Assembly (NCBI GenBank): GCA_017448975.1
Contig: JAFSKN010000029.1
Location: 1 to 64,000 of the forward strand
Direction of reading: 5' to 3'
DNA from: Clostridia bacterium
GTDB lineage: Bacteria > Bacillota > Clostridia > Christensenellales > Aristaeellaceae
Length of the DNA stretch: 64,000 nt
The notes under the pieces are model-generated. The model saw nothing but the letters and a program-made list of their open reading frames with translations. It was not told the origin of the DNA and searched no databases. Shown one piece after another: positions 20,616 through 38,147 of the stretch. The position numbers and the translations under genes were made by a program. Within the stretch, counting starts at the first letter, position 1. Every line of letters starts with the position of its first letter.

Positions 20616-21080
20616 ATGGCGAAGTTAAAACAACAGATCAAAATCACTGCATTGTATTGCAGGCTGAGCCGAGATGACGAATACAGCGGCGACAGCGTTT
20701 CGATCCAGACGCAGAAAACGCTGCTTGGACAGTTTTCTAAGGAACGGGGATTCACAAACTGCGAATACTTCGTGGATGACGGGTACTCAGGGACGAACTA
20801 CAACCGCCCGGATTTCCAGCGGATGCTGAATCTGGTGGAGGATGGACAGGTCGGGATCGTGATTGTCAAAGACCTTTCCCGGCTGGGCCGCGACTACCTG
20901 CAAACGGGATTCTACACGGAAGTCGTATTTCCCGAACACAACGTGCGCTTCATTGCCATCAACGACAATGTGGATTCTGCGGCTGGAGACAACGAGTTTG
21001 CCCCGTTCAAAAATATCATCAATGAGATGCTTTCATTAAGAAGGGATCATTACATAGCAGCACCGGCAGAAAGAGTTTAG
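20616..21080 (+). pseudogene. 5' part of serine recombinase A, cut by element B
   Basis: Codons 1-136 encode the resolvase catalytic domain: YCRLSRDD with nucleophile S18, [12 protein letters not shown], and [14 protein letters not shown]. The frame then crosses into element B at GAG (21024-21026) and ends in 18 unrelated residues. The expected continuation NEWYARDSSRKV lies at 36879-36914. Joining base 21023 to 36882 restores one 557-residue frame. A TATAAT lies at 20566-20571 and GGAAAGGACGG before the ATG. As it stands it makes only a truncated catalytic domain without the DNA-binding part. Confidence 0.9.
21024..21026. other. attL of element B
   Basis: The left junction reads ATCATCAAT-GAG-ATGCTTTC. 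Bases to the left are recombinase A coding sequence (codons for I-I-N); bases to the right are element B. The same GAG is found at 36882-36884. Confidence 0.85.
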
Positions 21081-21085
21081 GAGAT

Positions 21086-21137
21086 AAAACTGACAATTTG
21101 ACCGCTCTTGATCATGCGGACTCTTATTGTCAGTTTT
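21086..21137. terminator. Bidirectional terminator at the left end of element B
   Basis: AAAACTGACAAT (21086-21097) pairs with ATTGTCAGTTTT (21126-21137); an inner CCGC/GCGG stem extends it. T-rich sequence flanks both sides, so it can end the truncated recombinase A transcript and the foldase operon. Confidence 0.7.
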
Positions 21138-21202
21138 CTTTGTGTTTGCATCCATAATACGGTTCTCATTATCAGTCAGAATTGTTTTGAGCATTTCAGC
21201 GC

Positions 21203-35233: not shown

Positions 35234-36847
35234 ATGACGCAAACGTATAACGCAGGCATCTATTGCCGCCTTTCCCGCGATGACGAGCGCACCGGGGAAA
35301 GCGTGTCGATAGAAAACCAGCGGGTATTGCTGACCCGCTATGTACAGGAACAGGGCTGGAACCTCATTCAAACCTATGTGGATGATGGCGTCAGCGGAAC
35401 CACCTTCGACCGGCCCGGCCTGAACGCCATGATTTCCGACATTCGAGCCGGAAAGATCAATCTGGTAGTCGTGAAAGACCTGAGCCGCTTCGGGCGGGAT
35501 TACATCGAAACCGGGAAATACATCGATGTGATTTTTCCTTCTCTCAACTGCCGGTTCATCGCGCTGAATGACGGCGTGGACACCCTTCATCACAACAATG
35601 AAATGCTCGCTATTTTCAAAAATGTGATGAACGATTTTTACGCGCGTGATACCAGCAGCAAGATCAAGGCAGTCAAGAAATCCACCTTCCTGGCAGGGAA
35701 ATTCATTGGCGCTTATGCTCCCTATGGGTATATCAAAGATCCGAACGATCATCATCACTTTGTGATTGACGAACCGGCAGCGGCAGTCGTTCGGAGAATC
35801 TTTGCTCTGAGATGCCAGGGAATAAGCTATCGGAGAATCGCAGGCATTCTGAATGAAGAGAAGGTGCTCCCGCCCAGGGATTACTACTATCAGGCAATCG
35901 GAAAGCCGAACCCGTATCGCCAGAATCATGTGTGGAATGATGTGACAGTCAAAGTTCTTTTACGCAATGAAGCCTACATTGGCAACATGGTGCAGAACAA
36001 AACCGGTACGGTATCCTATAAGGATCATTCCCAAGTCAGCAAACCGGAAGAGGATTGGATTCGCGTTTCCAATACCCATGAACCCATCATTGATATGGAC
36101 ACTTGGGAATTGGTTACGCAGATCGCCCGGCGAGGAGCCTTCACCCGCGTTCGGCCTTTCCGTGGCATCAACATGTTCGCGGGATTGCTGTTCTGTCTGG
36201 ACTGCGGATTCGCACTGATTCATCGAGTAGAGAAACAGACTCGAAAGAATGGCACTTATGTGGAATATGAATCCTATCTTTGCGGCTGCTACTCCAGGAG
36301 CGGAAAGACAGCTTGTTCTACGCACACGATATACCAGCGGCCACTCAAAGAAATCATTTTGGCAGACATCCGCGCGAAAGCCGAACTGGTGTCAATCGAC
36401 GAAAAGTCGGTAGTTCAGCGGCTTTCTGAGCGGATGCAGGCCCAATCCTCACAGGAAATCGCGGCAAACAAGAAAACCGTCAAGGCGCTGAATAAGCGCC
36501 TGACGGAGCTTGAAAAGCTGATCGCCGCCACCTATGAGGATAAGGTGAAAGGACTCATTCCAGAATCCGTGTGTATTGAACTGCTGAACAAGTATCAGTC
36601 AGAGCGCAATGAGAAAGCAGCGCAACTGAAAGAACTGGAACAGCAGTTGGACAGCACACAGGCCGTGCAGGACGATGTGCAGAACTGGGCTGACATGATC
36701 CGTCAGTATCGGAACTTGGATACCCTTGACCGCGAAACACTTCTTCGCCTCATCGATAAAATCGAGGTAGGCGAAAAGAAGATCGTGGATGGGCACAAGG
36801 AGCAAGAAATCCGGATACACTATAAATTTGTAGGATTTATTCAATAA
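35234..36847 (+). CDS. TnpX-type large serine recombinase B
   Basis: This 537-residue protein has the catalytic resolvase domain (YCRLSRDD with S14, DDGVSGTTFDRP, KDLSRFGRDYIETGKYID), a recombinase domain (GYIKDPNDHH...), and a zinc ribbon (LLFCLDCGFALIHRV... CSTH). A long coiled coil and a beta end (IRIHYKFVGF) complete it. It should excise and insert element B at GA-core sites. The stop is 35 bases from the right junction. It is clearly related to recombinase A but not its recent duplicate. Confidence 0.92.
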   Translation: MTQTYNAGIYCRLSRDDERTGESVSIENQRVLLTRYVQEQGWNLIQTYVDDGVSGTTFDRPGLNAMISDIRAGKINLVVVKDLSRFGRDYIETGKYIDVIFPSLNCRFIALNDGVDTLHHNNEMLAIFKNVMNDFYARDTSSKIKAVKKSTFLAGKFIGAYAPYGYIKDPNDHHHFVIDEPAAAVVRRIFALRCQGISYRRIAGILNEEKVLPPRDYYYQAIGKPNPYRQNHVWNDVTVKVLLRNEAYIGNMVQNKTGTVSYKDHSQVSKPEEDWIRVSNTHEPIIDMDTWELVTQIARRGAFTRVRPFRGINMFAGLLFCLDCGFALIHRVEKQTRKNGTYVEYESYLCGCYSRSGKTACSTHTIYQRPLKEIILADIRAKAELVSIDEKSVVQRLSERMQAQSSQEIAANKKTVKALNKRLTELEKLIAATYEDKVKGLIPESVCIELLNKYQSERNEKAAQLKELEQQLDSTQAVQDDVQNWADMIRQYRNLDTLDRETLLRLIDKIEVGEKKIVDGHKEQEIRIHYKFVGFIQ

Positions 36848-36881
36848 AACATTTACCCTTCTTTATCGAAAACTCTCTAAC

Positions 36882-36884
36882 GAG
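36882..36884. other. attR of element B
   Basis: The right junction reads CTCTCTAAC-GAG-TGGTACGC. Bases to the right are recombinase A codons for W-Y-A-R-D. The bases to the left belong to element B. Confidence 0.85.
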
Positions 36885-38147
36885 TGGTACGCACGCGATT
36901 CAAGCCGGAAGGTCCGGTCAGCCCTTCAGGCCAAGGCACGGAATGGGGAATACACCGGCAGCTATCCACCCTTCGGCTACTGCAAAGACCCCATGGACCG
37001 GCACCACCTGATCCCAAGCGAATACGCTCCTGCTGTAAAGCGGATGTTCCAAATGGCGTTGGAAGGACAAACCTGCTATGCCATCGCTAGGAAACTGGAA
37101 AAGGAACAGATTCCAACGCCAAGAGCCAGTCTCATGCAGGCGTATGGGAAATACGAAACAGCAGAACGTGCGAAGTATCCGAACAAATGGGATCAGACGA
37201 CCGTTCGCGGCATCCTTCGCAATCCCATTTACCTGGGCAAACTGATCTGGCAGAAAACGCAGACGAAATCCTTCAAGGATAAGCGCATTGTAGCAAGGCC
37301 GCAGGAAGAATGGATCACAGTAGAGGGCACCCATGAAGCGCTGGTGGATGAGGCTACCTTCTATACCGTTCAGCAGCGTATCCAAGTCAAGCAGCCCGCG
37401 CCTACCGCGAATCCAGAGAACAAGCTCCGGGGCCTGCTGTTCTGCGGAGGCTGCAACAGCCGCATGGAGTTTTCCTCCGCCACAGGCAGGAAAATCTGCG
37501 GACACTACTGCTGCGGCAAACATCGGCACTATGGAGGCAAGGAATGCTCCACTCACTATATTTCTGTGAAGCAGATCAATGCTGTACTTCTGGAGGACAT
37601 TCAGCGTCACGCAAGCCTTGCTGCGGAAGATAAGGAAAAGTACATTGCGTATCTGATGCAGCTTTCTGAAAAGGAATGGATCGGCGAGAAAGCGTCCTAT
37701 ACGAAGGAAGCGGAGCAGTGCCAGCGGCGCATCTCCGAACTCGACATTCTGCTGAAACGGCTGTACGAGGACAATGTGTTCGGACGCATCTCCGACGAAC
37801 GCTTTGCCAGCATGTCAGCTGATTACGAGGCCGAATCCAGGAAGTTGAAAGACAGGTACAATGAAATTCAAACCCTGCTTGCCAACTATGCCCGGCAAAG
37901 CCGTGACGCCAAGGAATTTGCCGCTCTGGTGGAGCAGTACACGAACATCACCGAACTCACGGAAGAACTTCTTCACACTTTGATCGAAAAGGTGATCGTG
38001 CATGAGAAAGAAGTCATTGACGGTGAAACGGTGATGCGGATCGACATCTACTACCGCTTTATCGGCAAGGTTGGCAGCGAGGACGATGCAATCTTGATTA
38101 CACCGAAAACGCGCCGGGTCAGCATCCCGCTGGCTCCCGGCGCGTGA
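36882..38147 (+). pseudogene. 3' part of serine recombinase A, separated by element B
   Basis: From GAG (codon 137 of the rebuilt gene) 421 residues follow to TGA (38145-38147). They comprise the linker NEWYARDSSRKVRSALQA and the recombinase domain. A zinc ribbon comes next (LLFCGGCNSRMEF ... CGHYCCGKH), then the coiled coil and the end YYRFIGKVGSEDDA. No promoter or ribosome site belongs to it, so it is silent unless element B leaves. The frame has stayed open without damage, which implies a recent split or repeated restoration. A 9-bp hairpin (38110-38118/38136-38144) ends the gene. Confidence 0.9.

Follow-up and report, generated by a model that had tools for sequence, protein, structure and literature searches.

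Mobile elements that integrate site-specifically are thought to pick targets at which they do the cell little harm, and those that rely on large serine recombinases (LSRs) use a crossover core of two base pairs. Res-site hunters instead enter res sites beside resolvase genes by DDE transposition, with duplication of the target. Insertions of one mobile element within another have been described repeatedly: streptococcal integrative and mobilizable elements (IMEs) with serine integrases sit in traG, maff2 and snf2 of Tn5252-type integrative and conjugative elements (ICEs), and their excision has been proposed to restore the disrupted gene (PMC5357655; PMC5704250); 116 of the 256 matched sites of IME_Rho_tet lie in maff2 open reading frames (ORFs) of larger elements (PMC12904643); and a 1.7 kb erm(B) element, for which no excision was seen, lies inside the serine integrase gene of IME_SsuNSUI086_PPI (PMC7168690). 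A multi-targeting LSR clade rich in DUF4368 was omitted from an analysis of target-gene enrichment (PMC10083194). Here we examine a stretch of 64,000 nucleotides (bases 1-64000 of contig 53, JAFSKN010000029.1, in a 3.08 Mb Clostridia bacterium draft genome of 80 contigs that is 85% complete and, judging by its relatives, probably gut-associated; herein referred to as the window), in which a 15.86 kb element, B, interrupts the gene for one LSR, recombinase A, in frame and directly after codon 136. Element B is very probably a site-specific integrative element whose own LSR uses the coding sequence of other LSRs as its attachment site and disables them, which would make it an LSR-gene hunter.

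The N half of gene A (20616..21023, plus strand, codons 1-136) encodes most of the catalytic Resolvase domain (Pfam PF00239, 1.4e-19, profile positions 2-111 of 145), and the C half (36882..38147, plus strand, 421 residues) encodes the DNA-binding part, with the domains PF07508 (Recombinase), PF13408 (zinc ribbon) and PF14287 (DUF4368). Both halves are open and complement each other, and the cut falls near the end of the Resolvase domain (profile position 111 of 145; in LSR B this domain reaches residue 150). LSR B, the presumed integrase of element B, is complete (35234..36847, plus strand, 537 amino acids) and has the full TnpX/TndX-like domain set of Resolvase (PF00239), Recombinase (PF07508), zinc ribbon (PF13408) and DUF4368 (PF14287); the TnpX N-domain structure 2mhc matches its residues 8-117 at 2.2e-30. 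A preliminary description of this locus had proposed that an element carrying a recombinase splits the gene in frame and, by joining the two halves, had predicted a protein of 557 residues, to be sought uninterrupted elsewhere; the open halves and the complete LSR B bear out the former, and genomes of the same genus supply the latter. The best match (L076/L083, genome G010) has 557 residues and identities to A of 97.8% (N half) and 92.6% (C half), a second (L078/L084, G004) also has 557 residues at 87.5% and 78.9% identity, respectively, and a third (L080, G023), with one stop codon in its C part, reaches 97% for the N half and, over 385 residues, 86% for the C half.

Comparison of the window junctions with these three uninterrupted genes locates both the insertion and its core. 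All three empty sites read ATCATCAAC-GAGTGG (that is, ATCATC-AAC-GAG-TGG), whereas the left junction in the window reads ATCATCAAT-GAGATG (ATCATC-AAT-GAG-ATG) and the right junction reads CTCT-AAC-GAG-TGG. The sole bases common to both sides of the crossover are the AA of an Asn codon (left copy 21021..21022, right copy 36879-36880, plus strand); the T that follows the left AA derives from the element, and element B therefore spans 21023..36880, or 15,858 bp from core to core. AA would thus serve as the two-base core expected of TnpX/TndX-like LSRs, the exception among the relatives being L030 (TT). The junction had previously been placed at GAG; the split is as precise and as in frame as that placement implied, but the core is the AA just left of this GAG, two bases earlier, and the repeated GAG is similarity beyond the core. 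The arms of the element were judged by eye: the left arm, TGAGATGCTTTCATTAAGAAGG (21023..21044), resembles the inverted right arm as well as the left ends of relatives, and the right arm, CCTTCTTTATCGAAAACTCTCTAA (36857..36880), agrees in place and pattern with CTTCTTTATGCGAGGTTATCTAA of relatives.

The G023 genome holds both an A gene without insertion and an interrupted one. The C half of this second A gene (L077/L082) is preceded, at the same base as in the window, by a decayed B-type right end that keeps about the last 28 codons of its LSR gene; no N half of this A gene turned up on the contig. Such recurrence bears on the possibility that the arrangement is an assembly misjoin or chimeric contig. 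The many contigs of the draft, and the presence in the window genome of two partial A-type C halves (96% identical) that end at the starts of contigs C3 and C10, are compatible with a misjoin, but the same junction is repeated in isolates, in independent assemblies and in G023, and we regard an assembly error as exceedingly improbable.

Scanning a species-genome collection with LSR B yielded 53 loci, among whose hosts are the cultured Blautia sp. An81, Pseudoflavonifractor sp. 60 and Acutalibacter sp. 1XD8-33. We counted, besides the window element, those related elements from LSR B homology scans in which at least 60 bases are readable beyond the LSR gene, where related means an LSR inside a 25-row group of the tree described below or one with at least about 45% identity to LSR B. 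Excluded from the count are L019 (whose contig ends ~26 bases past the gene), L074 (a damaged gene), L040 (a chimera), the fragments L062, L065, L066 and L068, and L073a (the first of two LSR genes in L073, directly followed by the second, so placed that no element end is readable); the G023 copy also stands outside the 26 elements so defined, having come from neither scan that supplied them. In 20 of these 26 (window, L018, L021-L025, L027-L031, L033, L036, L038, L039, L051, L071, L072 and the second LSR of L073), the flank is an LSR gene cut at the same codon, the N of N-E-W-Y-A-R-D; the L027 flank was judged by eye over 26 codons and the remaining LSR flanks match the LSR profile. Past the element's LSR gene, the DNA becomes the C half of another LSR, with the same start residue, or an opposite-strand N half, at a distance of ~33-38 bases from the gene end in most closer relatives and ~100-140 bases in L038 and L039. 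Where both ends are readable (13 elements), an N half and a C half flank ten, an N half only flanks one (L034) and neither flanks two (L026, L037). For L023, a contig begins within the N half, of which ~50 codons are present and were judged by eye; the N end of L027 is a weak profile match.

The junctions themselves are similarly uniform: AAT on the N side in 12 of the 13 listed (L038 has TAT), AAC or AAT on the C side in all 16 listed and, outside this list, TT in L030 and AA followed by A or G in L072, L073 and the inner cut of L038. Of 16 target C halves extracted, the 14 that exceed 100 residues are cut at one common boundary and are only 25-66% identical pairwise, which indicates many different targets rather than one inherited insertion. 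The intact L037 gene is 93% identical to the N half that is split in L039 and 91% identical to the C half that is split in L033. The single nested insertion of the preliminary description is hence real and understated, given this target preference across the clade, and its suggestion that B may be a hyperparasite of A is now much stronger, most readable elements of the clade being inserted in LSR genes.

Two other accounts of these data can be weighed here. One holds that a TnpX/TndX-like element of low specificity landed in an LSR gene by chance, and it draws on the prevalence of DUF4368 LSRs in the multi-targeting clade (PMC10083194) and on the non-LSR sites in L026, L037 and L066. By our estimate, however, LSR genes make up about 1% of the genome (the A C half has 14 matching places within the 3.08 Mb), and yet 20 of 26 flanks begin at the same LSR codon; the family survey refutes chance insertion as a general account, and we consider it very improbable. 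The other holds that tandem LSR clusters, which are present in L031, L040, L071 and L072, have been misread as insertions. Truncation at one nucleotide and the existence of empty sites speak against such a misreading, as does the recovery, 4-16 kb off at the opposite end of the element, of N halves that complement the C halves; we accord it almost no credence.

In a midpoint-rooted tree of 39 LSR sequences, LSR B falls in a group of 25 with 100/100 support, composed of the window lineage (with L018 and L019), a large group and the sister pair L038/L073b. All 18 hunters in the tree fall inside this group (L036 and L039 are not in the tree), which also holds L020, L026, L032 and L035, whose readable flanks are non-LSR. 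Closely similar enzymes occur at dissimilar targets: those of L022, L024 and L030 are ~1-2% apart by branch lengths and their targets are 32-38% identical. Identity between the elements of L026 and L037 is 99.6% across 5,300 bp, end to end, the L031 element is 96.5% identical to both, and the three occupy three different sites, a comparison that indicates that the unit moves. The right 2.6 kb, the integration module, is common to the 11 members of the large group that were compared, although L036 shows gaps in it, and cargo has been exchanged among elements of this group. Such cargo includes Cas5-Cas8c-Cas7-Cas3 of a type I-C CRISPR system in L028 (2617-11657; the two stretches checked for a CRISPR array gave no direct repeats, and the locus gave no tandem repeats), genes for type III restriction-modification in L025 and DUF1266 proteins in L023 and L030.

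Several observations weigh against the reading of B as an LSR-gene hunter or limit its reach. The sample was gathered through one enzyme, LSR B, and the tree carries a long-branch warning that includes L035 and L073a. In 6 of the 26 elements (L020, L026, L032, L034, L035 and L037) the flank is not an LSR gene, and the left end of the L066 fragment lies outside any LSR gene; specificity for LSR genes, as judged from these flanks, is strong and not absolute. The minus-strand element of L038 begins after TA and not AA, and in L030 (5671 and 11657) the hunter lies in the opposite orientation and each junction has TT in place of AA, a pattern that is unexpected if the core is simply AA and that would need mismatch resolution or a later inversion. 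The relaxase of the window copy, discussed below, has no match in 12 relatives by tblastn. Finally, catalysis by LSR B and excision of the element are both presumed here. Broader searches returned few matches: the right-end DNA pattern occurs in 1 of 391 class-level genomes (with 3 mismatches) and on one viral contig (L071), the left-end pattern had no match in the same survey, the LSR B protein at E <= 1e-150 was found among 200 genomes in the window's own only, IMG/VR searched with the A C half gave a single relative at 35%, and neither B nor the L051 element had a megablast match in a plasmid collection, where the best protein match was 40%.

We hypothesize that LSR B itself performs the recombination with LSR coding sequence, such that the two-base AA core of its attP recombines with the same two bases in the conserved Asn codon of a target motif, F-K-N-x-x-N-[E/D]-[W/F/M]-[Y/F]-A-[K/R]-D, which lies close to where the catalytic domain ends. 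This motif is conserved in the LSR genes of unrelated elements, and one enzyme could therefore find many sites. The insertion parts the catalytic from the DNA-binding portion, so recombinase A should be inactive while B is present, and the host element would be unable to move unless B departs or another recombinase serves it in trans. The earlier proposition that A cannot excise itself is uncertain in practice, since the two partial A-type C halves elsewhere in the genome make it possible that an A enzyme may act in trans on the split A element. For B, the benefit would be a home that is dispensable to the cell, widely available (several copies per genome) and carried on travelling elements.

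Precise excision of B would be expected to restore the Asn codon and the reading frame, which raises the alternative of a regulated lock, in which B excises under control, like the sigK and gerE intervening elements, and so switches the A recombinase on. Precise in-frame junctions and open halves are compatible with such a switch, and the same idea has been proposed for IMEs in ICE conjugation genes (PMC5357655). The targets vary widely, however, and some halves are short or broken (L027, L034, L036), which fits parasitism better than a maintained switch, and we consider a lock unlikely, though less so than the accounts dismissed above.

Predation also extends into the clade of B. In both L038 and L073, an element from the sister lineage has cut a B-clade LSR gene at this same Asn codon, after ATG-AA. 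The LSR B gene itself contains the single perfect match to the degenerate target motif in the window genome (35628..35643, plus strand, found by motif search); allowing up to one mismatch, there are 12 matches in this genome against 2 for a reversed-pattern control, and 7 of the 12 lie in LSR genes, one of these being the occupied junction. We considered whether the B gene has gained self-immunity by recoding (NDFYARD in place of NEWYARD), and rejected this: AACGATTTTTACGC is a used target in L021 and L025, the B gene retains a perfect motif and the B-clade genes of L038 and L073 have been hit.

The Asn codon is one of several places at which LSR genes are broken. Among 78 internal LSR breaks (window plus L018-L074, score at least 35, at loci that were chosen via B and are not an unbiased sample), 31 fall at profile positions 124-138, 9 at positions 40-61 and the other 38 are scattered over the 532 positions. 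A second conserved region, that of the DDG and FDRP codons, is cut by other elements. Two different LSR genes of L072 (203 and 1950, a contig from a viral collection) are each joined at their DDG codons to one and the same element end, GACCAGGCTTGACACTTTCA, which appears to belong to a DDG-codon hunter. Another end, ..AAGTATCGTTATCTAAC, occurs with up to 2 mismatches at the FDRP codons of three different LSR genes (L019:2631, L036:7072 and L074:1602). An open LSR frame of 600 codons in L040 (10001-11800) is of the B clade up to codon 51-52 and a different LSR thereafter; its DNA is 95% identical to the B-clade gene of L028 over the first 153 bases and 93% over 200 bases upstream, against 56% over bases 157-300, and the gene is, on this evidence, a chimera that switches at DDG, the one example we have. 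Two further observations concern the same region and another motif: in L006/L015 (G000:C51, in the window genome), a further LSR gene begins only at the DDG codons (profile position 50), as if cut there, and in L033 (2280) and L030 (13476) N-terminal LSR pieces end at Q-E-(D/N)-I with similar DNA after (TGTCAAGG..), perhaps a third insertion site at conserved codons.

These patterns suggest a more general view that we put forward tentatively and would at present sooner doubt than adopt, namely that in gut Clostridia several independent element lineages use LSR genes as a shared docking station, each at a conserved codon block of its own (the Asn of NEWYA for the B clade, the DDG and FDRP codons for other elements), and prey on one another, their own clade included. 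Recombination at shared sites would generate chimeras in which catalytic parts acquire new DNA-binding parts and, with them, new integration specificities.

The remainder of B comprises a mobilization gene, a regulator and a possible surface-protein module. A MobA/MobL-type relaxase (33450..34898, plus strand; PF03389, 1.6e-79) scores 191.9 bits against the MobQ model NF041496, slightly below the cut-off of 200, and no conjugation gene was recognized among six further B ORFs examined in one analysis and three in another. The window copy of B is probably mobilizable; as the relaxase was not found in the 12 relatives searched, this label holds for that copy only. A helix-turn-helix regulator (31499..32332, minus strand; PF01381) has a 37% identical homologue in the L018 element, and an IS1380-type transposase (29375..30721, plus strand; NF033539, 9.8e-96) lies inside B. 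On the minus strand between 21203 and 28988, a PPIC/PrsA-like prolyl isomerase (21203..22504; PF13616), an ORF of 1928 codons (22511..28297) that matched no known family in domain searches and a class B sortase (28056..28988; TIGR03064, 8.6e-29, under the curated cut-off; PF04203) stand in a row, possibly as a surface-protein module of B, in which the large ORF beside the sortase would perhaps encode the surface protein.

Host element A ends on the right at 38177..38187, where homology with A copies at other loci stops; A-type copies lie at different places and have this right end in common. For the left end, a single 10-base match was found, and the end was not located. A likely carries anti-phage cargo within 2629-19891 of the window, comprising a tetratricopeptide repeat protein with weak matches to STAND-type ATPases (2629-4926), a SIR2_2 protein (6420-7484), a WD40 protein of 1592 residues with a PADLOC effector match (11500-16278) and a two-gene candidate PDC-M62A/B system (16346-19891). 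L083 is without the stretch that corresponds to window positions 4905-20323.

If B and its relatives are hunters of LSR genes, their target is the very machine that moves competing elements, recognised through codons that LSRs cannot easily change, and they present conflict between mobile elements, at the stage of integration, in a direct and testable form. Defence-carrying mobile islands of the gut, of which A is seemingly one, may be frozen by such hunters. The survey also provides a collection of LSRs whose attachment sites, in a diversity of natural targets, have been computed, and it suggests a route for recombining recombinases into new specificities.

Among described elements, Tn4451 (TnpX) and Tn5397 (TndX) have the same LSR architecture as B and use different sites, and their reported core is GA where that of the B clade is AA. 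The res-site hunters of the Tn5053 family likewise prefer the recombination apparatus of other elements (PMC7765201; PMC12217951). B departs from these in that an LSR gene lies at its end, its site is within coding sequence and only AA is shared at the junctions. The site of B does lie in a gene of another mobile element, this gene being an LSR gene in an element whose copies occupy different places, and it is not traG, maff2, snf2 or an oriT. The streptococcal IMEs resemble B in that they are mobilizable, carry an LSR and interrupt a gene that is conserved in another mobile element; as these sources present them, they differ in occupying conjugation-associated genes of one ICE superfamily, whereas the B clade occupies a recombinase gene, in diverse LSRs, at one codon (PMC5357655; PMC5704250). 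IME_Rho_tet is likewise a gut IME with an LSR and a relaxase; its main target is maff2, and portions of the main text of its description mention no LSR target (PMC12904643). The erm(B) element also lies within the LSR gene of an IME and is a single case, for which the portions examined of that report describe no family or site preference (PMC7168690). Searches of the open-licence literature, at the level of the main text, brought up no description of elements whose targets are LSR genes in general. Nested site-specific integration is already known; what is new within that literature is the mechanistically pointed target of the B clade, the LSR gene itself.

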